A stretch of 41,420 nucleotides of DNA from positions 1 through 41,420 of the forward strand of contig JAJQFO010000187.1 of assembly GCA_021201095.1 (NCBI GenBank), given 5' to 3'. The translations under genes and the position numbers were made by a program. The notes under the pieces are model-generated. The model had not been told where the DNA came from. It ran no database searches and was given only the letters and a program-made list of their open reading frames with translations. Position 1 is the stretch's first letter. Every line of letters begins with the position of its first letter. This DNA comes from Lachnospiraceae bacterium. GTDB taxonomy: Bacteria; Bacillota; Clostridia; Lachnospirales; Lachnospiraceae. This document shows positions 21,230-30,430 of this stretch, piece by piece.

Positions 21230-22834
21230 TTAACGCGGAAAATGATAAAACCCCGATGCTGGCTGTGCCGTGCCATCAGGCTTCCCCCCGGACGTTTCCT
21301 CTGCGCGAAGAGCCACGCCAAGCTCCTCCAGTCTGCTTTCCAGATCCATCAGGCAGTATTTCCCGAAATTCCGCACCCGCATCACGTCCTCCCGGCTTAC
21401 CTGGAGCAGCTCTCCAACTGTCCGAAAACCAGCGCGGCGCAGACAGTTGCAAGAGCGAAGCTTCAGACCAAGCTCCTCGATCAGCATGTCTTCCCGGTAA
21501 AACAGCTTTCCATAGCGCACCGCGATCACTTCGCTTTTGTCTTTGGTATACAAAACACCCTCTTCGCAGATAAAGTGGGTATTTTTTTCATCAACAATGA
21601 TATTTCCCAGATTTTTGCAATCCAGAAATGCGTACTTGCCAATCTCCCGGACATTCTCCGGGATTTGAATCCTGGTCAGATTTTCACATCCGCAAAATGC
21701 CCTTTCGCCAATCTGAACCAAAGCCTTCGGCAGCACAATTCCCCTTAAATATTTGCTGTTCAAAAATGCTTTTTCTTTTATTACAGTCACTGTCCCGGGC
21801 ACCCGAAACTGTTCCTGCTCCGACGTACAGAAATATTGATACAAAACCGTCTTGTCCTTGTTATAAACCGCACGATTCTCCGAAGTGAAAAGAGGATTTC
21901 CGGGAGCAAACTCGACGTTCTTCAGATTCCGGCAGCCCTCCAGCCATCCCTCTCCGATCTGAACCAGACTCTCAGGCACCGAGAGTTCCTCCAGCCCCCT
22001 GCAGCCGGCGAACGCGCCCTCTCCCAGGCGGGTCACACCATCGGGGATCATCATTCGCTTCAGCGCAGCACAGCTGGCAAAAGCCCCGGCTCCAATTTCC
22101 GTCAGCTGCGCAGGCAAATTCACCTCCGCCAGAGCAAAGCAGTCAGCGAACGCCTCATCCTCAATACACGTCACTGTATCCGGCAGCACGATCTTTTGCA
22201 AGTCGCCGCACTCATAAAAGGTCCCCCTTTTAATCCTCGTAATCTGCCCATTCAGCACCACACGCTCCAGGTGACAAAAGCAAAAGGCCTCTTTTTCTAT
22301 AGAAGTCACGGTGTCCGGAATCGAGCAGTCCCCGCCCTTCCCTTTCGGACACCGCAGCAGAGTTGTCAGCGCTTTATCATATAGGATCCCATCCCTTGAC
22401 GCATAAACCGGGTTCTCATCATCCACAATAATCTCCCACAATTCACTGCAGGCCCCAAAAGCCTGGGGATCAATCACAGTGACTGTAGATGGTATCACAA
22501 TCTCATAAATCTCTTTATAATAGGGCTCATCATAATCGTCGAAGCCGTCATAGTCATCAAAACCGTCAAGGCTGTCTAAGGCATCTGAGTCGTCTGGACT
22601 GTCAGCATCACCAGAAACAGCTGACCCGTCTGAACTGTCAGCGCCACCAGGACAGCCAGAGCTTTCAAAATCATCAGGTTCGTCACATGTCCGCCAGCCA
22701 TCAATGGCGTAATCATAAATCCTGGTCACCGTATATCCGTCTATTGTTTCCGGTATTACCAGGCGCGACGAATTCCCACAGAATTTTGTGATTCCGATGG
22801 TCGTTTCTGTTATTTTCTGATATTCATAGCGCAT
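21230..22834 (-). CDS. BspA-like leucine-rich repeat protein with C-terminal RNA polymerase alpha-CTD-like domain
   Basis: 534 residues, no signal peptide. Residues ~24-55 and ~110-440 are LRR_5/BspA-type repeats (IPDTVTSIEKEAF, LPAQLTEIGAGAF, IPENVREIGKYAF), about ten units. An Asp/Ser-rich low-complexity insert lies at ~55-108 (DGFDDYDGFDDYDE). Residues 452-510 (bases 21305-21481) match the C-terminal domain of RNA polymerase alpha: IEELGLKLRSCNCLRRAG, then VRNFGKYCLMDLESRLEELG. The Arg and Asn equivalent to E. coli alpha R265 and N268, and the G-K of the second DNA-contact helix, are kept. Lack of a signal peptide plus this domain suggests a cytoplasmic, possibly DNA- or transcription-related protein rather than the surface role of BspA. 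AAAGGA lies about 12 bases before the ATG. Confidence 0.88.
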   Translation of the reverse strand: MRYEYQKITETTIGITKFCGNSSRLVIPETIDGYTVTRIYDYAIDGWRTCDEPDDFESSGCPGGADSSDGSAVSGDADSPDDSDALDSLDGFDDYDGFDDYDEPYYKEIYEIVIPSTVTVIDPQAFGACSELWEIIVDDENPVYASRDGILYDKALTTLLRCPKGKGGDCSIPDTVTSIEKEAFCFCHLERVVLNGQITRIKRGTFYECGDLQKIVLPDTVTCIEDEAFADCFALAEVNLPAQLTEIGAGAFASCAALKRMMIPDGVTRLGEGAFAGCRGLEELSVPESLVQIGEGWLEGCRNLKNVEFAPGNPLFTSENRAVYNKDKTVLYQYFCTSEQEQFRVPGTVTVIKEKAFLNSKYLRGIVLPKALVQIGERAFCGCENLTRIQIPENVREIGKYAFLDCKNLGNIIVDEKNTHFICEEGVLYTKDKSEVIAVRYGKLFYREDMLIEELGLKLRSCNCLRRAGFRTVGELLQVSREDVMRVRNFGKYCLMDLESRLEELGVALRAEETSGGKPDGTAQPASGFYHFPR

Positions 22835-22968
22835 ATTTTCACACGTTCCTTTCCCAGATGGCTTTATTATAGACTTCCGGAAAGCGGCTGTAAGTCATTT
22901 TTCAGAATTGTTCAGTACCTTCACAGTTACCATTTTTCTATATCGGCTTCGCCGTTCCGGCGCTAAAA

Positions 22969-23205
22969 GTGCATAGCAACACCTATTATTTATTCCAGCT
23001 TTGTCTGAGCCGATATACCATCATTCCGGATTATCCGGAGGAAGACTACGCAGAGGCAATGGTGTTTGCAAACTTCTCTCCTGAGGTTATGCTGCTTTTA
23101 GATAAAGCAGTAAGTACAGGATTATCTGTGAGCATGACCGCAAGGATATCCTGGCACCATTTCGGAAGGCCGTGATTCGCGTCTTTCACAACGATGAACC
23201 CTGAC
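22969..23205 (+). pseudogene. 3' fragment of an Rpn-like gene (frameshifted remnant)
   Basis: The translation FANFSPEVMLLLDKAVSTG matches NFSHEVILLLDEAVSTG of the intact gene at 27597-28634. Right after it one base is missing (GGATTATCTG against GGATTTATCTG), which breaks the frame, while the DNA match continues through CATGACCGCAAGGATATCCTGG to about 23205. The N-terminal two thirds are absent. It abuts the 3' end of the AAA-ATPase gene. Confidence 0.7.
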
Positions 23206-23233
23206 AGATAGCCATATCACGTATGATGTATCA

Positions 23234-24844
23234 CTAATACACCTCAATTTTACAGTGATGTATCTTATCCTTTTTATAATAACCGATTCCCACAAGGATA
23301 ATACGTCCGGTAGTTTTCGGCATTTCACCAAGTTTTCCCTGAAACTTCAAAGCATACTTCTTATCTCTGATTTGTTTCAAAGCCGTTTCAGGAGAATCAT
23401 CTACCTTCAATTCAATAATAATTCCATCGTCAGCGCGATTATAGGGATAAAAAATGTAATCTACATAGCCAATTCCAGCCTGATCTTCCCTTTGCATATC
23501 ATATTTATTTCGCGCGGCAAGGTAAGCCAGCTTCACGCTGCCTGACAGTTCCGCCTCATCGCTGTAAGATTTTAATGGCGATTCTGAATTGTGCACAAAT
23601 TCAAGGACATCCGCAATCGTATCCTCATCTCCATTGTAGGTAGCCTGAAGAATCCGTTTCGATTCTATTTCCAGTTTCTGCATATAATTGAACTTCGGCT
23701 CCGTTTTTACGATCTTATCAAACTCTGTCTGAAGCTCTCTGTTCGGTATTCTTACGCAGCCATCATAATAATTCAAGTATCCATATACTGTCATAACCGA
23801 AAGGATCTCGTCTCTCTTTTTCAACTTCTGAGCCGTAGTGGCATACTCTGATATGTCCGCCTGTACCGGCTCACCCGCCACAAGGAGCATCACAGCCTCT
23901 CTGACGCCATCAATATCATTCAGGACATAGTCTTTCAGTTCTTCATATTCACCTGCTTTCGACCAATAATTCCCCAGACGGTTCTGCGACAGCGCAAACA
24001 CAACCGAATTGGGATTATAAATCCCTGAACCTCCCTCCATGTAATAACCATCATACCAATCTGTCAGTTTTTCTCGCGTGAAGGCAGGCTTCAAAACATT
24101 TCCCAGGTAACGCTGATACAGCTCATCCACTTCCTCATCTGTAAAGCCAAAATATTTATCAAATACGGAACAACCCGCCATATTATACTCCGCAAAATGA
24201 TTCATTGTATCGCTGCCGAAATATTTCTTAATCGGGAGGATTCCCGTTATATAAGTCATTTCAATATAAGGCCGGTCCTTAGTCAGATCGCCCAGAAAAG
24301 CCGTAAATCTGCCTCGATCCATCTCTGTAAAGTAAGGCCTGTGAAAAATATAATCCCATTCGTCAAAAACCAAAATAAATTTTTCTCCACGATACTTTGC
24401 AGAAACATTGCGCAGCATCGCCCCCACCGTATCGCCCCGGCGGTGTACCGCGTCCGGATATGCCTCTCTGATATCACCAATAAGTCCATCCTTAATATAT
24501 TCAATGTATTGATCATACGACTTACAGTCATCCGGCCCCTTGCTGAAATTGATATAAATTACATTATGCCGATTTAAATGCAGCGCAAATCCTTCTTCAC
24601 TCATAATCTTCAGTTTTGAAAAAACCGTACTGCCGTCAATCCCGCGATTAAAAAAAGACGCAATCATCGCTGCTACTACAGATTTTCCAAATCTTCTTGG
24701 CCGCGTGACAGCGATATTACTGCCACCCTGCTCTACCAGTGGGAAAAGCTCTTTTAATAATTCCGTCTTATCTACAAAATAAGGTTTTTTTATTTCCCGC
24801 TCATAAAGTTCAAACGCATCTGGTGAATTCAGGTAATATCCCAT
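23234..24844 (-). CDS. AAA-ATPase-like protein with C-terminal PD-(D/E)XK nuclease domain (PF09820/PF08011 type)
   Basis: 536 residues. The N-terminal ATPase region has the family's variant P-loop RPRRFGKS (48-55) and Walker B ILVFDEWDY (~154-162). A long helical middle follows. The C-terminal PDDEXK_9-like domain shows YVDYIFYPYN (Asp) and GIIIELK (Glu-x-Lys) near 470-490. The start is ATG at 24842-24844; the ribosome binding site is weak (GGGGG-TAAAGAGAG). The frame continues upstream without a site. This family is multicopy in Clostridia and Bacteroidetes, with no firmly known role; defence or mobile functions are suspected. It sits between two broken copies of an Rpn-like gene, in the opposite orientation to them. 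Confidence 0.85.
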   Translation of the reverse strand: MGYYLNSPDAFELYEREIKKPYFVDKTELLKELFPLVEQGGSNIAVTRPRRFGKSVVAAMIASFFNRGIDGSTVFSKLKIMSEEGFALHLNRHNVIYINFSKGPDDCKSYDQYIEYIKDGLIGDIREAYPDAVHRRGDTVGAMLRNVSAKYRGEKFILVFDEWDYIFHRPYFTEMDRGRFTAFLGDLTKDRPYIEMTYITGILPIKKYFGSDTMNHFAEYNMAGCSVFDKYFGFTDEEVDELYQRYLGNVLKPAFTREKLTDWYDGYYMEGGSGIYNPNSVVFALSQNRLGNYWSKAGEYEELKDYVLNDIDGVREAVMLLVAGEPVQADISEYATTAQKLKKRDEILSVMTVYGYLNYYDGCVRIPNRELQTEFDKIVKTEPKFNYMQKLEIESKRILQATYNGDEDTIADVLEFVHNSESPLKSYSDEAELSGSVKLAYLAARNKYDMQREDQAGIGYVDYIFYPYNRADDGIIIELKVDDSPETALKQIRDKKYALKFQGKLGEMPKTTGRIILVGIGYYKKDKIHHCKIEVY

Positions 24845-24930
24845 TCTCTCTTTACCCCCTGATACATAACAAGCAATATAAATCATTATATTTTGTGCCG
24901 GCCCCAGGGATTCACTTAAATGTAGCTTAT

Positions 24931-24973
24931 CCCGTAAGCAAAGCTTACCACGAACTGCCATAGTTCGCAAGGC
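24931..24973. repeat. R3 hairpin repeat (copy 1)
   Basis: Two hairpins: GTAAGC-AAA-GCTTAC and CGAACT-GCCAT-AGTTCG. The second, with its flanks TTACCA and GCAAG, recurs at 27312-27337. Confidence 0.5.
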
Positions 24974-25044
24974 ATAATTTCCAGTCTGCCTTAGAATTTT
25001 TACGAAAAAACAATTTGACAGATGATTGATAGCATGTGGTTTTT

Positions 25045-25308
25045 GCAAATTTGAAGTTGACAACTTTTCCTCATGAGGTTATACTGCTTTTAGATGAAAC
25101 GGTAAGCACCGTCACGCACCGAATATATCTGTGAGCATGACCGCAAAGACATCCTGGCACTATTTCGGAAGGCAATGATTCGTGTCTTTCACGAAGATGA
25201 GTATCAGCGAAAAGCCGTGACATGCAAAATCGCCTGTCGGCGATGGCTCGGCCTGCATCGTGAATCCGCTGCGCAAATTCACAACACGATTTGGAGGAGG
25301 TAAATTAT
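25045..25308 (+). pseudogene. broken Rpn-like gene copy, interrupted by a short insert
   Basis: DNA matches the intact gene from about 28293 (GCAAATTTGAAGTTGACAA) through CATGAGGTTATACTGCTTTTAGATGAA and TGTGAGCATGACCGCAAAGA. The frame is broken near 25100-25130. About 84 bases (25205-25288) with the hairpin TCGCC-TGTC-GGCGA are inserted exactly where the intact gene reads straight on to GGAGGTGG. The insert brings in a TAA at 25301, just before the ATG at 25309. Confidence 0.7.
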
Positions 25309-25503
25309 ATGACACCACCTGTTTTAGAACTGGAACGTGAAACTATCGTAAGACTGGAAAAGGAAATTGACTCTCTTAGATCGGAATGTGAAACGATAAA
25401 GTCAAAATATAATGTAGTGATGGCAAAATACACAGCACTGGAACAGGAAAACGAAACCTTAAGAGCAGAGAAAACCCAATATACAGATGGTAACGCCGTC
25501 TGA
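25309..25503 (+). CDS. small coiled-coil protein equal to the C-terminal part of an Rpn-like protein
   Basis: 64 residues: MTPPVLELERETIVRLEKE, then heptad-type Leu/Glu/Lys sequence to the end, i.e. a coiled coil. It corresponds to the last 56 residues of the intact 27597-28634 product (MTAPVLELERETIVRLQKE). A strong ribosome binding site, GGAGGAGG, lies 8 bases before the ATG, and a good terminator follows, so it can be expressed although the upstream two thirds of the gene are broken. In the gene-within-gene Rpn systems the small C-terminal product is the inhibitor of the nuclease; whether this one does so is inference. TTG at 25291 is a less likely start. Confidence 0.6.
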   Translation: MTPPVLELERETIVRLEKEIDSLRSECETIKSKYNVVMAKYTALEQENETLRAEKTQYTDGNAV

Positions 25504-25534
25504 AGCGAAAACGTAAATAATGAGCTGGCAGACA

Positions 25535-25562
25535 GCCCGGGATGAAAATCCCGGGCATTTTT
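25535..25562 (+). terminator. intrinsic terminator after the small coiled-coil gene
   Basis: Perfect 9-bp stem GCCCGGGAT-GAAA-ATCCCGGGC followed by five T. The same terminator stands at the same place after the intact gene (28649-28676). The T-run continues into R1-like sequence (TTTTTATGCTCATGG). Confidence 0.9.
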
Positions 25563-25599
25563 ATGCTCATGGTCGGGCAAGCTGCTCTATAGCTAAAGT

Positions 25600-25742
25600 C
25601 ACCTCATTTTACGCTTCGTTTCGATCCGGGCCAAGCAGATGTCCACTAGGTCTCCGCTTAACTCCGGTTCGCCCCTGCGTCTCCGATTTTTTGCAAAAAC
25701 CGGAGCATGAAAAGTGTGCCACTAACACACGGAGGCCTCTCA
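25600..25742. repeat. R4 post-terminator module (copy 1)
   Basis: About 140 bases matching 28800-28930. Shared blocks are AGCAGATGTCCAC (copy 2: AGCGGATGTCCAC), a hairpin with poly-T/poly-A arms (25691-25715), and GTGTGCCACT. Both copies follow an Rpn-like gene and its terminator. Confidence 0.6.
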
Positions 25743-25782
25743 AATTTACATGTTTTAGTTTACTCTGCATCCATCTTATTCC

Positions 25783-27105
25783 TTAAATCAAACGCTTAAT
25801 TTTCCCCGGTATCCAGACCAGCGCTTTTCCGATTTTAAAAGACCAGGAAGACCGTGTTTCCTGAAGCTTCTTACTCATCGCCTCCTGCTTTTTGCTTTCC
25901 TCTTCCAGCTTTCGACTTACCTCCTGCAGCTGCCTATCAGTTTCCTTTAGCTTTTTATCTGTCTCTTCCTGCTTTTTATAAGCCATCTGCAGCTGTTTAT
26001 CTGTTTCTTTCTGTTTTTGATAAGCGGTCTGTAATTCCCGGGTCAGCTGCTTGCATTCTTTCTTCTGTTTGGAAAGTTCATAGCTCATGCCTCTCCGTTC
26101 TGCCACAGCCACATCTTTTTGCATATACATAGAATTGGAGAGGAAAACTGCAAACTGTTCCGGCGTATCCTGGTAAAAATGCTGTACACAATTACCAGCC
26201 CAAGCGCTATAATAATACCCTTCCTCCTGTGGAAAAATATGCAATTTTTTAAGCCCATATTCTTTTAAAGCATCCAAGGCAATGCAAAAAGGTTCCCAGC
26301 TTTTAAAATGCTGAAACATGTAAATCATAATATCCAAAGCTCTATTTGCAAATGTTCGCTCACCAAAACCATCAAATTTTTCAAGATTTTCTGCCGCGCT
26401 TATCCAAGTCTGAATCGGAGCAAGAGGTGCCGCATCCTGTGAGCACACCAGGCCACTGTCTAAATTTACTCGATAATTAATCAATTTCTCATCAAGAATC
26501 GTTATCCTGTCAGCTAATCCAATTGCATTGACTGTAAAATAGACATCATTGCCATTTCTTACAGGCTGAAAATTCAGGCCTAGTCTTTCTATATAGGCTC
26601 TTTTAAACAGTTTATTCCATGCCGCCACATTCGTAAAATCAAGATAATGCTCTTGATTATTAAAGCGATTAAATGTTTCACCTGATGGTACCTTTTTAGG
26701 GTTCAAATATGGCGGCCATGGATATGATTTCTGTTTAGACTCGAAATATCGGTTTCCTCCGCAGACACACACATCTGCGTCTACGCTTTTCGCTTTTTGA
26801 TAAAGCTTTTCCAGTGCCTGCGGATCGAAAAAGTCATCGCAGTCCCAGAATACCAGATACTCGCCGGTCGCATGAGATTTTCCCAGATTTCTGGCCACTC
26901 CGGCATATCGATTCTCCTGCGTGTAGATCTGAAATCGATCATCCTTAGACTGATACTCTCTTAAAATTTCCAGTGACGAATCCGTCGACCCGTCATCCAC
27001 GCAAATAATTTCAATATCCAACAGCGTCTGGTTGCAAATGCTGTCCAGACACTCCCGCAAATATTTTTCTCCGTTATAGACTGGGACAATTACTGATACC
27101 TTCAC
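25783..27105 (-). CDS. family 2 glycosyltransferase (GT-A) with C-terminal coiled coil
   Basis: Transfers a sugar from a nucleotide-sugar to a surface polysaccharide precursor at the cytoplasmic membrane face. The GT2 core shows VSVIVPVYNGEKYLRECLDS at the start, then CVDDGSTD and FWDCDDFFDP (DxD metal site). Residues ~340-430 are a coiled coil built from repeats of (K)ETDKxLQ, and the chain ends in a basic amphipathic tail (FKIGKALVWIPGKIKRLI) that may bind the membrane. The start is uncertain. GTG at 27103-27105 and TTG just before it follow GGGAGG by 11 and 8 bases; a TTG at 27144 has no site. Probably part of the surface polymer locus that continues to the right, cut off by the Rpn-like gene. 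Confidence 0.85.
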   Translation of the reverse strand: MKVSVIVPVYNGEKYLRECLDSICNQTLLDIEIICVDDGSTDSSLEILREYQSKDDRFQIYTQENRYAGVARNLGKSHATGEYLVFWDCDDFFDPQALEKLYQKAKSVDADVCVCGGNRYFESKQKSYPWPPYLNPKKVPSGETFNRFNNQEHYLDFTNVAAWNKLFKRAYIERLGLNFQPVRNGNDVYFTVNAIGLADRITILDEKLINYRVNLDSGLVCSQDAAPLAPIQTWISAAENLEKFDGFGERTFANRALDIMIYMFQHFKSWEPFCIALDALKEYGLKKLHIFPQEEGYYYSAWAGNCVQHFYQDTPEQFAVFLSNSMYMQKDVAVAERRGMSYELSKQKKECKQLTRELQTAYQKQKETDKQLQMAYKKQEETDKKLKETDRQLQEVSRKLEEESKKQEAMSKKLQETRSSWSFKIGKALVWIPGKIKRLI

Positions 27106-27437
27106 CAAAATGCTATCCTCCCTACTATTTTCCTTATCAATCAAACCAGATTTTCTGACAAAAGTGTGCTATTTTAAACCCGATGGGCAACCGTCAAAGC
27201 ATCAGGAAATGTGCCCTATATGGATTCGAGCATACAGCTATGCGCCTTCGCACCTTCTCCTTTCGCATCCTTCGACATCCCACCAGCGCAAAGCACACCT
27301 ATGCCCCCAGATTACCACGAACTACCCTGGTTCGCAAGAACAATGTGAGTTGCAAAAATAAATTACGGTGAAATTTGTTTTTATTTCATACGTTTAGATG
27401 ACTTTATATTAATTATCTTATATTTTATTTATATTAA
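27106..27437. other. intergenic region with an R3 hairpin
   Basis: R3 copy 2 at 27312-27337 (TTACCACGAAC, TACCCTG loop, GTTCGCAAG). Otherwise AT-rich to the right and without a supported gene. Confidence 0.4.
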
Positions 27438-27466
27438 TTGACATATCTAATATTATGTGTTATCAT
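27438..27466 (+). promoter_or_regulatory. sigma-A promoter of the intact Rpn-like gene
   Basis: Perfect TTGACA (27438-27443), 17-base AT-rich spacer, TATCAT (27461-27466). The ribosome binding site AGGAAGGAGG follows at 27527-27536. Confidence 0.75.
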
Positions 27467-27596
27467 TCCAAGTGTCCCGATCATTCGTAATTGTTTTCTC
27501 TTATAAGCAAAAACCACAGCAGAAACAGGAAGGAGGTCAAAGGAAACGCACAGCAGCGGCAATATTGATAATTATGACACAATTACAGAAGATAAA

Positions 27597-28634
27597 ATGA
27601 CCGAAAATCAGATGAACAACGGCCTTCCAAAAGGAATCCATACGGAGGCACAGCTATGGGATGAAATTCTAAAAAAAGAAGTTCTGGAAATGCCCTTCCT
27701 TCTCCTGCCAGTTATTGAGGAAATTCACGGAACAGCTTATCCGGCAGGCACAAAAATCACTCCCTTCGGAACAGAATATTCCGTAGAGAGAGTCGTCACG
27801 AAAGAGATTTCCTCTATTCGCTCAGACGCCGCAGTCTGGATAGAGTCGCAGATCTACCACTTTGAGTGTGAAAGCAGTACCGGCAAAATAATTGTAAAGC
27901 GTACCTTCGAATACGATGCCCAGGCCGCACTCTCCTGCGCCGAAAAAGGTCCTGAGGAGATTCCCTGGCAGCTGAATTTTCCATACTCCACGGTTTTCTT
28001 TCTGGAGCCCGGGACTGGTATCTCCGACCGACTTACATGCCGGCTGCGTCTGCCGGTCTACCGCGAAGATAAGCGTCGCACGGAAGTCAAAGACATAGAT
28101 TACGCCGTCCCGGCTCTGAAAGTGCAGGATTATACCTTGCAGGAAATCCGCGAAAAAAAGCTCCTGATCCTGATTCCGTTTACACCGATCCGTTTTAGAA
28201 AACTGGCAGGCAATAGCAATGCCAGTGGAAAAGACCAGGTCAAAAGCGAAAATAATCAGGAACCGCAACAGCCTAATTATGATCCAGTTTTTGCAAAATT
28301 GGAATTGACAAATTTCTCTCATGAGGTTATACTGCTTTTAGATGAAGCAGTAAGTACAGGATTTATCTGTGAGCATGACCGCAAAGATATCCTGGCACTA
28401 TTTCGGAAGGCTATGATTCGTGTATTTCACAAAGACGAGTATTTATTGGAGGTGGTAAATCATATGACAGCACCAGTTTTAGAACTAGAGCGTGAGACCA
28501 TCGTAAGGCTACAAAAAGAAAACGAAAATCTAAGATTGGAAATCACAGCATTGGTACAAGAAGTTGAAACTTTAAAAGCAGCGAGAAACCCAATCTACAG
28601 ATGGCAGCACCGTCTGAAACGCAAACGAAAATAA
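27597..28634 (+). CDS. Rpn-like putative PD-(D/E)XK nuclease with coiled-coil C-terminus and internal start
   Basis: 345 residues from the first ATG. Residues ~50-105 resemble a PD-(D/E)XK core: RSDAAVW (Asp 77) and IYHFECESSTGK (Glu 90, Glu 92), then an EYDAQAAL helix. Residues ~230-285 form the conserved module NFSHEVILLLDEAVSTGF..EHDRKDILALFRKAM. Residues 290-345 are coiled coil with a basic end (RWQHRLKRKRK). The ATG at 27597 has no ribosome binding site. The good site (27527-27536) stands 9 bases before an ACG at 27546 that is in frame, so the natural start may be ACG or an ATG lost by mutation. A second strong site, GGAGGTGG, lies before an in-frame ATG at 28464. The family is multicopy in Lachnospiraceae without a firm function; the Rpn relation is by motif and architecture only. 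Confidence 0.75.
   Translation: MTENQMNNGLPKGIHTEAQLWDEILKKEVLEMPFLLLPVIEEIHGTAYPAGTKITPFGTEYSVERVVTKEISSIRSDAAVWIESQIYHFECESSTGKIIVKRTFEYDAQAALSCAEKGPEEIPWQLNFPYSTVFFLEPGTGISDRLTCRLRLPVYREDKRRTEVKDIDYAVPALKVQDYTLQEIREKKLLILIPFTPIRFRKLAGNSNASGKDQVKSENNQEPQQPNYDPVFAKLELTNFSHEVILLLDEAVSTGFICEHDRKDILALFRKAMIRVFHKDEYLLEVVNHMTAPVLELERETIVRLQKENENLRLEITALVQEVETLKAARNPIYRWQHRLKRKRK
28464..28634 (+). CDS. possible nested small protein (C-terminal coiled coil of the Rpn-like gene)
   Basis: In-frame internal ATG at 28464-28466 with GGAGGTGG upstream (28448-28455; 8-11 bases). It would make a 56-residue coiled-coil protein. The same site and start are kept in the broken copy (GGAGGAGG, ATG at 25309). 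In E. coli Rpn genes an internal start makes a small C-terminal protein that neutralises the full-length nuclease. Expression here is inferred. Confidence 0.5.
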   Translation: MTAPVLELERETIVRLQKENENLRLEITALVQEVETLKAARNPIYRWQHRLKRKRK

Positions 28635-28648
28635 GGAACTGGCAAACA

Positions 28649-28676
28649 GCCCGGGATAAAAGTCCCGGGCATTTTT
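28649..28676 (+). terminator. intrinsic terminator of the Rpn-like gene
   Basis: GCCCGGGA pairs with TCCCGGGC, then ATTTTT; 14 bases after the stop. Twin of 25535-25562. The run-out reads into R1-like TTTTTATGCCCAGAGCC. Confidence 0.9.
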
Positions 28677-28691
28677 ATGCCCAGAGCCTGG

Positions 28692-28769
28692 CAAGGCTTA
28701 TCCCATGCGAAGCGTGGGACGCCACCCGGCGAGGCTTATTCCATGCGAAGCGTGGAATGCCACCCGGCG
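28692..28769. repeat. two tandem ~39-bp hairpin units with paired base changes
   Basis: Unit 1 holds TCCCATGC-GAA-GCGTGGGA, unit 2 TTCCATGC-GAA-GCGTGGAA. The C-to-T change in the left arm is matched by G-to-A in the right arm, so the stem is kept. Both units end in GCCACCCGGCGAGG or nearly so. Confidence 0.65.
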
Positions 28770-28799
28770 AGGGATGTACGGCTAAAGCCGCTTCAGTCT

Positions 28800-28930
28800 A
28801 CACTTCTACATTGCGTTTTGATCAGAGCGAAGCGGATGTCCACCTGGTCTTCGCCTCGCTCCGATCCGTTCCTGCGTCCTCGATTTTCAGCAAAAATCAA
28901 GACATGAAATGTGTGCCACTGGCACACAGC
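28800..28930. repeat. R4 post-terminator module (copy 2)
   Basis: Matches 25600-25742 over about 130 bases, including AGCGGATGTCCAC, a T-rich/A-rich hairpin and ATGAAATGTGTGCCACT. Confidence 0.6.
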
Positions 28931-29240
28931 AACCGCGCGTGCGAGCAGGAGTCGCCAAAGCCTCCTCATACCCGATCACAGGACTTCCCGCCAAAAAGTA
29001 CCGAAAGCGTTAAAATTGCGTCAAAATTCACTTCCCTTTGATAATCTGCCCTTGCACAACAAGACATTTCCATATATAATGTATCAGCAAAACTTGCAGC
29101 CTGTAAAAAATACGCGTGCTCTGGCATCACGGTATTCCTGCTTTTTCCGAACACTATCTGCTGTCACTGATTGACAACTCATAAACATTTACCAAGGTCA
29201 TCGTCTGCCAGGAACTGAGCAGCCGCTCAAATCATGAAAA
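28931..29240. other. intergenic stretch, nothing recognised
   Basis: Between the R4 copy and the acyltransferase gene. A TTGACA is present at about 29172, but no matching -10 at the right distance. No gene or stable terminator seen. Confidence 0.35.
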
Positions 29241-29257
29241 CAAGGAGAAGATTTATC

Positions 29258-30430
29258 ATGTCCACTGAAAGGACTCAGCGTCAGGACCGAATCGAAAAAT
29301 GGGATTTATTAAAAGCTCTCTTAATATTTCTGGTCGTTTTGGGGCATTTTACTGATTACTACACCCCTGATTCCTCCAAAATGCGGGCATTGTTTCTTTT
29401 CATCTATTCCTTTCACATGCCGTGTTTTTTATTTGCAGATGGATTGTTCAGCAAAAACACGATTAATAAAAATAATTATTCCCGCATCTTTTCTTATCTC
29501 TGTATATATATTGCTGCAAAGATGTTAAACACGTTCGTCCATGGGATTGTAAATCACACTTTCAGTTTTTCTCTGTTTAGTGAAGATGCGTTTCCCTGGT
29601 ACGGCCTCACTTTGTTCTGGTGCTGCCTGATCACTATTTTTTTAAAACAGTTTTCCAGAAAATGGATCCTGTGCGCAGCCATTCTGTTTGCCTGCTTTGC
29701 TGGCTATGACAATGATATTTCGGATTTTCTGGTATTATCCCGGACGATTGTTTACTATCCGTTTTTCTTTCTGGGATATTGTACAGATTACCGCCATCTG
29801 GAAAAGGCGACGTCATCCTGGCGGGCGAAATTAACTGGGGTTCTCATATTAGTCGTTACGGCGGTATTCATTCTCCTTAAAATTGACGATATTTATTTCA
29901 TCCGTCCTCTTTTAACGGGACGGAATCCATACAGTGCGCTTACAATCAGCGAAGATCTTAAGATGTGGGGAGGCTTGCTGCGGCTCGCTTATTACCCTGT
30001 TGTTCTTTTCCTTTGCATGGCGGTTATTGCAGTCATCCCATCAAATGTCTCTCCTGCCTGCACTGTAAAAACAGCTGAAAGCAATGCCCATACCCGCTCA
30101 GCACATTTTTCAGCACATTTTTCTTACACCGCTCTCGTAGAAATGCAAACCCGTACACTTCACTTTTTTGCAGGAGTCGGGCGGAGAAGCCTGCAAATAT
30201 ATTTGCTTCACCGCCCAGTCCTTTATATTCTGTACAACGGTTTTCACCTGAATGACTTTATGACACGCTGCGGGGTTCCTAATCTGGTTATTATTCCTTT
30301 GGCTTTCCTGTTGACACTGGTTCTTAGTCCGCCTGTTTTGGAAAAACCGGTTCGCGCGGTAATATATCCTGGAAAACGGAAGGAATCTTTTGACGGGTCG
30401 CCGTCTTCCTCTTTGGACAGTTCAATCTGA
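29258..30430 (+). CDS. acyltransferase 3 family (O-acetyltransferase-like) membrane protein
   Basis: Transfers acyl groups, usually O-acetyl, to surface polysaccharides. About ten membrane helices. The N-terminal block KWDLLKALLIFLVVLGH carries the conserved catalytic-type His after helix 1, followed by FIYSFHMPCFLFADGLFSK, as in fucose 4-O-acetylase-like enzymes. A hydrophilic loop (~260-300) with a small duplication (SAHFSAHFS) precedes the last helices. The start at 29258 has AAGGAG 10 bases upstream; an ATG 24 bases earlier overlaps that site. It is a paralogue of the frameshifted acyltransferase at 32215-33226, which shows the same KSLLIFLVV..H and SFHMPLFMF blocks. A Ser/Asp-rich tail ends the protein. 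Confidence 0.87.
   Translation: MSTERTQRQDRIEKWDLLKALLIFLVVLGHFTDYYTPDSSKMRALFLFIYSFHMPCFLFADGLFSKNTINKNNYSRIFSYLCIYIAAKMLNTFVHGIVNHTFSFSLFSEDAFPWYGLTLFWCCLITIFLKQFSRKWILCAAILFACFAGYDNDISDFLVLSRTIVYYPFFFLGYCTDYRHLEKATSSWRAKLTGVLILVVTAVFILLKIDDIYFIRPLLTGRNPYSALTISEDLKMWGGLLRLAYYPVVLFLCMAVIAVIPSNVSPACTVKTAESNAHTRSAHFSAHFSYTALVEMQTRTLHFFAGVGRRSLQIYLLHRPVLYILYNGFHLNDFMTRCGVPNLVIIPLAFLLTLVLSPPVLEKPVRAVIYPGKRKESFDGSPSSSLDSSI

Follow-up and report, generated by a model that had tools for sequence, protein, structure and literature searches.

Gene organization at the locus

The window, i.e., the whole stretch of 41,420 nucleotides from a Lachnospiraceae bacterium that we analyzed, contains a gene for an Rpn-like nuclease and, within it, the signals of a smaller candidate gene in the same reading frame (Table 1). 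A preliminary description had pointed to an internal ATG with a strong ribosome-binding site that would make a 56-residue tail, and had proposed that a broken copy at 25309 keeps the same site and start; we verified the coordinates, frame and ribosome-binding site of the former, and found the latter to retain both signals ahead of an ORF whose first part is the same coiled coil. The ATG (28464–28466) is codon 290 of 345, and the tail is encoded by 28464–28631. Absent from that description was a sigma-70 type promoter, TTGACA-N17-TATAxT, inside the coding sequence. A promoter scan of positions 22800–29300 returned three sites scoring 11 of 12, namely 27438, the internal site at 28305–28333, and 25057 in the broken copy; six sites scoring 11 or more were present on the two strands of the whole window.

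Table 1. Positions of the nuclease gene, the nested gene and the related copies in the window.
Feature	Position	Strand	Details
Third, frame-broken remnant of the C-terminal module	23115..23228	+	
Internal-type promoter of the core-less copy	25057..25085	+	TTGACA-N17-TATACT, 11/12
Ribosome-binding site of the stand-alone copy	25293..25300	+	GGAGGAGG
Stand-alone small ORF	25309..25503	+	64 aa; same start and coiled coil; end differs, basic tail lost
Terminator-like hairpin of the stand-alone copy	25535..25556	+	
Promoter-like site of the full-length gene	27438..27466	+	TTGACA-N17-TATCAT, TG before second hexamer, 11/12
GGAGG upstream of the main ORF	27532..27536	+	Not followed by a canonical in-frame start in the window or G038a
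Full-length Rpn-like nuclease gene	27597..28634	+	345 aa from ATG 27597; start codon uncertain
Internal promoter	28305..28333	+	TTGACA-N17-TATACT; within the coding sequence, -159 from the internal ATG; 38/38 members
Internal ribosome-binding site	28448..28455	+	GGAGGTGG; GGAGG; 11 nt from GGAGG to ATG
Nested small gene	28464..28634	+	56-aa coiled-coil protein with basic tail, in the nuclease reading frame
Terminator-like hairpin and T run	28649..28670	+	3' of the stop codon common to both ORFs

Among the 29 family members with an N-terminus, 20 have an upstream site of the GGAG or GAGG type with an in-frame start shortly behind it, and in the genus of the window GGAGG is followed by a close in-frame ATG or TTG in 11 of 13 such members. 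The two exceptions are the window and its sister G038a; since no start stands behind the first GGAGG in either, expression of the full-length protein is uncertain. The next in-frame start is ATG 27597 in the window and GTG at the corresponding place in G038a, both without a ribosome-binding site and both overlapping the TGA of a short out-of-frame ORF (27574–27600 in the window), an arrangement that could permit translational re-initiation. Low toxin and high antitoxin output would suit a putative toxin-antitoxin pair of this kind. The main promoter scores 7–11 of 12 across the 29 members, and we therefore make no claim for its conservation. The window genome (4.8 Mb) carries a second full-length paralogue (contig C56) and several fragments.

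Three neighboring genes lie on the reverse strand. A glycosyltransferase family 2 gene with a tail that is, by eye, repeat-rich and coiled-coil-like (25786–27105) lies between the copies, and an AAA-ATPase/PDDEXK_9 gene (23237–24844) sits between two core-less copies of the C-terminal module. The third (21233–22834) encodes BspA-type leucine-rich repeats joined to an RNA polymerase alpha C-terminal domain. PADLOC at 1e-5 matched none of 10 neighboring proteins, a small sample of five in the window and five beside relatives.

Conservation of the internal promoter, ribosome-binding site and start codon

In the genus of the window, 12 of 47 genomes (that of the window included) gave matches at E ≤ 1e-10. 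The profile matched 41 of the 397 genomes sampled from the bacterial family at E ≤ 1e-15, many of these matches covering the nuclease part alone of more distant Rpn-like proteins; those from genomes sampled at the level of the order (5 of 392, E ≤ 1e-30) and of the class (3 of 391, E ≤ 1e-25) all came from this same bacterial family. An alignment-based scan of genome contigs found 19 loci, a single-protein scan of genome contigs gave no match, and one scan of viral contigs found no family member. A search of the open-access literature returned no earlier description of this nuclease family.

The aligned set comprised 38 members, the window included, from seven genera and one MAG record without genus assignment: 21 from the same genus (the window and three core-less copies included), 10 from genus g57, six from five further genera, and the MAG record. 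Two loci (L088 and L116) and the stand-alone small ORF of G525 were left outside this set. Protein identity to the window is as low as 29% among members. Expectations for each signal were obtained by shuffling synonymous codons, using each gene's own codons in 500 runs; the shuffles treat the relatives as independent, and some of the members are close pairs.

The internal promoter was present in all 38 members, always with a spacing of 17 nt and a score of 10–12 of 12. It lies at -159 from the internal start in 35 members and at -156 in the other three, which miss one codon. Shuffling produced it in 3.6 of the 38 members on average and in no more than 10. The most conserved synonymous windows of the gene, among 229 three-codon windows, were the internal -35 and -10, with synonymous excesses of 0.66 and 0.50 against a median of 0.05; synonymous sites elsewhere show little excess. 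The Leu residue encoded within the promoter uses TTG in 38 of 38 members, a codon that accounts for 16% of Leu codons.

Taken alone, the single GGAGG-ATG site in the window is moderately unusual: GGAGG lies 5–12 nt upstream of 8 of the 306 internal in-frame ATGs in the 45 stop-to-stop frames of at least 200 codons in the window, a count that mixes real genes with chance frames. A lone site of this kind is not rare, so conservation across relatives decides. GGAGG precedes the internal start in 36 of 38 members, whereas the shuffles gave 5.3 on average and never more than 11. All 21 members of the genus of the window carry it, where synonymous choice alone predicts a probability of 0.03–0.21 for each; the two members without it are paralogues in one genome (G387), which have CAGGTGA there. 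The site stands either 8 or 11 nt from the start, two registers that differ by one codon. In the 36 carriers, the Glu codon within the site is always GAG, as against 32% usage, and the codon preceding it always ends in G, compared with 12 expected, even as it encodes any of seven amino acids (Leu, Lys, Glu, Ser, Gln, Arg or Thr).

At the aligned start position, 32 members have ATG, three GTG and two TTG, such that 37 of 38 are start-capable; the remaining member has ACT there with ATG directly after. One of the TTG starts belongs to the second full-length paralogue in the genome of the window. Where Val or Leu replaces Met, it is always encoded by a start-capable codon (GTG or TTG). Promoter, ribosome-binding site and start are likewise all present in the nuclease-bearing copy of G525.

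Because the third base is fixed while the amino acid is free, selection at the internal site appears to act on the DNA rather than on the protein. Conservation of the internal site far exceeds the demands of the protein, which points to selection at the DNA level and bears out the conservation that the preliminary description had made the test of its proposal. It might be argued that nothing is made separately from the internal signals and that they simply follow from the protein sequence and codon usage, given the frequency of lone GGAGG-ATG sites noted above and the conservation of the residues LT and EV in the protein. We regard this as extremely improbable: synonymous choice yields on average 3.6 promoters and 5.3 ribosome-binding sites among the 38 members, with 38 and 36 observed, the base before GAG is fixed under changing amino acids, and Met gives way to Leu and Val through TTG and GTG alone. 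Protein constraint alone as the source of the internal site was rejected on the basis of the shuffles and the wobble test.

Rpn homology, the coiled-coil tail and free-standing copies

The window protein matched no Rpn model (TIGR01784, PF04754, PF12784) in Pfam or NCBIfam at E ≤ 1; Pfam and NCBIfam gave no nuclease model match of any kind, and PADLOC gave no match. Fold searches of the PDB and of a viral library returned no match at E ≤ 0.001, and the lone sequence match among solved structures, adiponectin (E = 0.0017), was taken as chance. When profiles were compared with hhalign, the 38 members and 26 Rpn-like proteins from this bacterial family aligned over 257 columns (E = 1e-51), a stretch that spans the conserved Met. 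Three more distant relatives matched TIGR01784 at 2.2e-8, 7.4e-5 and 0.0071, all under the 52.1-bit cut-off. With E. coli RpnA alone, the alignment of the 38-member profile was not significant (E = 0.028, probability 1.8%), and that of the 26 Rpn-like proteins gave E = 0.0034 and a probability of 9.5%.

On the strength of the profile alignment and the TIGR01784 matches below cut-off, the layout was most likely inherited and not convergent, and the window family is most likely related by distant homology to the Rpn L/S toxin-antitoxin genes. Convergence in an unrelated family was rejected on the basis of the profile alignment. The proposal of a gene within a gene, as first made for this locus, is strongly supported at the sequence level by the shuffles and the wobble test, and the accompanying suggestion of a parallel family gives way to one of Rpn homology.

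The active-site residues of RpnA are D11, D63, E82, Q84 and R94 (PMC5350276). The last four were aligned in the non-significant hhalign comparison, and D11 was matched to D22 by eye. The equivalents D22, D77, E90 and R102 are conserved in 30/31, 31/31, 32/32 and 34/34 of the members that have a letter at the position, respectively. Position 92 is Q or E in 32/32 (Q in 21, E in 11), and all of the members with E are from the genus of the window, the window copy among them. In the window this residue is encoded by 27870–27872, a Glu where Rpn proteins have a catalytic Gln.

The tail is mostly coiled coil with a basic end, and basic C-terminal ends occur in many members. In a predicted monomer model, the tail is one long helix (residues 295–344). 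Differences in coil length between related members were multiples of seven residues in five of nine pairs (7, 28, 7, 14 and 14). A sixth pair differed by 18 (7 + 11), and the other three were less clean: 19 for G001/G032a, and several gaps for G566a/b and G487a/b, the latter with a masked stretch. The three members examined contain DNA repeats that account for the variation, with units of 21 bp (96% matches), 33 bp (90%) and 63 bp (97%). This repeat-based hypervariability of the tail resembles that of Rpn L/S genes in kind, not in unit.

Besides the full-length genes, we found free copies of the C-terminal module. Two such modules without nuclease (23115–23228 and 25012–25503) lie within 6 kb of the intact gene in the window. 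Five core-less copies away from contig edges were found in all (L036, L037, L038, L088 and the window copy), and these begin at profile positions 216–240, near the internal promoter. No nuclease core was detected ahead of them, and the boundary is blunt because the preceding linker is poorly conserved. Four of the five retain the promoter, the ribosome-binding site, the start and an ORF of 64–73 aa. Two of these retained copies, L036 and that of the window, miss the usual basic end. The window copy and L037 appear to share an insertion that separates promoter from ribosome-binding site; given this apparent common insertion, the two copies (25012–25503 in the window; G042:C58, 1728–2191, for L037) look orthologous in two species, and the small ORF is still open in both. 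The fifth, truncated copy (L088) has lost the -35, keeps the -10 alone and has TTA at the start position, and L116 keeps the promoter (11/12) and has lost the start region. Small ORFs also adjoin full-length genes in L044 (90 aa, overlapping the gene end) and G525 (73 aa, upstream), with neither GGAGG nor a promoter of their own.

These copies, together with the missing start behind the first GGAGG in the window and G038a, raise the question of whether the window locus is turning into one that makes the small protein only, its main start being weak and two further copies having lost the nuclease. Such decay is very unlikely in our view, since the window copy retains D22, D77, E90 and R102, with E at 92, and its nuclease part has a dN/dS of 0.15 against G038a. 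In the same comparison, the small ORF gave 0.08. Ratios were below 1 for both parts in all nine pairs compared, one of which was saturated; the highest were 0.48 for the nuclease (G042a/G038b) and 0.61 for the small ORF (G566a/b).

Possible function of the nested gene and comparison with known systems

We consider it fairly probable that the locus holds two genes in one frame, one for a nuclease and one for an internally made coiled-coil tail that holds the nuclease inactive. By analogy with the Rpn phage-defence toxins of E. coli, the product of the nested gene is probably a small protein that keeps the nuclease in check. The E. coli rpn genes contain an internal promoter and an internal start, from which the antitoxin RpnS is made that blocks RpnL (Zhong et al., 2023; PMC10327210). 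In E. coli rpnA we observed AAGGAG before the internal ATG and a promoter-like site (10/12) at -116.

In the model we propose, the promoter ahead of the gene would give a long mRNA for an Rpn-like nuclease of the PD-(D/E)XK type that carries a coiled coil at its C-terminus, and the second promoter (28305–28333), with its own ribosome-binding site and start (28448–28466), would give the tail alone. The free tail would then pair with the same coil in the full-length protein and keep the nuclease off, as RpnS does RpnL, with shared coil length and sequence determining which partners pair. The model presumes activity of both promoters and initiation at the internal start; following the E. coli precedent, the nuclease would be toxic, the tail its antitoxin and the pair a phage-defence system. 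A more tentative extension, which we think possible and rather doubtful, is that the nuclease gene harbors a complete, portable antitoxin cassette of promoter, ribosome-binding site, start and coil, found also free. Coil length, which often shifts by heptads, would then be a matching code for which nuclease copies of a genome are silenced, and the choice of ATG, GTG or TTG would set the dose.

Two other roles for the nested product were weighed. Rather than inhibiting the nuclease, it could be required by it as a co-subunit or assembly factor, much as Cas11d within Cas10d has been cited as a nested helper subunit (PMC10327210), and conservation of promoter, ribosome-binding site and start would be compatible with any nested product. 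This reading seems unlikely, given that core-less copies with promoter and tail persist, which makes more sense if the product is an antitoxin or decoy than if it is an obligate subunit, and that the family is Rpn-like, the tail being an inhibitor in E. coli Rpn (PMC10327210). Quite unlikely, and more so than a co-subunit, is that the product acts mainly as a transcription regulator, for example by binding DNA through its basic tail and repressing the main promoter. The basic ends of many members would fit such a role, and the strong internal promoter would permit tail production independent of the main promoter; however, neither the window protein nor its tail matched a DNA-binding family above cut-off, and the main promoter region varies between members, such that a conserved operator is not obvious. 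Restraint of the nuclease by the tail remains the reading we prefer.

If this reading holds, the gene-within-gene toxin-antitoxin design would extend to a family missed by the models searched. The locus also offers a sequence-only case of a nested bacterial gene that is selected as a gene, its promoter, ribosome-binding site and start being held synonymously across genera. Two questions thereby become testable, namely how widely Rpn-like genes carry internal promoters and whether antitoxin specificity depends on coil length, and the codon-level signature may be used to find further nested antitoxins.

Among known systems, Cas11 proteins made from inside larger cas genes share with the window family a nested in-frame product and an internal start. 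They differ in that the product is a helper subunit, and these genes are not known to have a conserved internal promoter.

Closer to the window family are the distant Rpn-like proteins L086–L115 (MGGKxLE, often with EGxx repeats), which are homologous over 257 columns, the conserved Met included. Of the 211 synonymous windows in this group, the strongest one immediately precedes the MGGK Met, and matches to the ribosome-binding-site consensus there are weakly above shuffles and inside their range (mean 5.0 versus 4.18, shuffle maximum 5.24). The synonymous peak hints at a conserved internal start without a promoter. No promoter was found at -156 to -162 in the 28 ORFs scanned from this group, a scan that includes two fragments of the window family itself (L088 and L116) and in which the Met position was guessed or wrong in L088, L103, L106, L107, L108 and L116; L106 and L108 have TTGAAA-N17-TATAAT at other positions. 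Unlike the window family, many of these proteins have four-residue repeats and none has heptads, as judged by eye.

With the RpnL/RpnS genes of E. coli and C. difficile, the window family has in common the nuclease pattern D..E-x-Q..R, an internal start behind a dedicated ribosome-binding site, and a tail whose length varies by short repeats; an internal promoter is found in E. coli too. Both also have free-standing tail copies, some beside the parent, as in the separate tail genes that adjoin the parent gene in E. coli (PMC10327210). There are also differences. The window family is too distant for Rpn models (COG5464, PF04754, TIGR01784) to reach cut-off. Its tail is predicted, in a monomer model, as a single long helix and not as the three-helix bundle dimer reported for RpnAS. 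The tail often varies by seven-residue units, in contrast to the four-residue repeats whose number sets specificity in E. coli Rpn (PMC10327210). The position of RpnA Q84 is E in 11 members of the genus of the window, the window included. Finally, the internal promoter of the window family is near-invariant in sequence and place across its 38 members.
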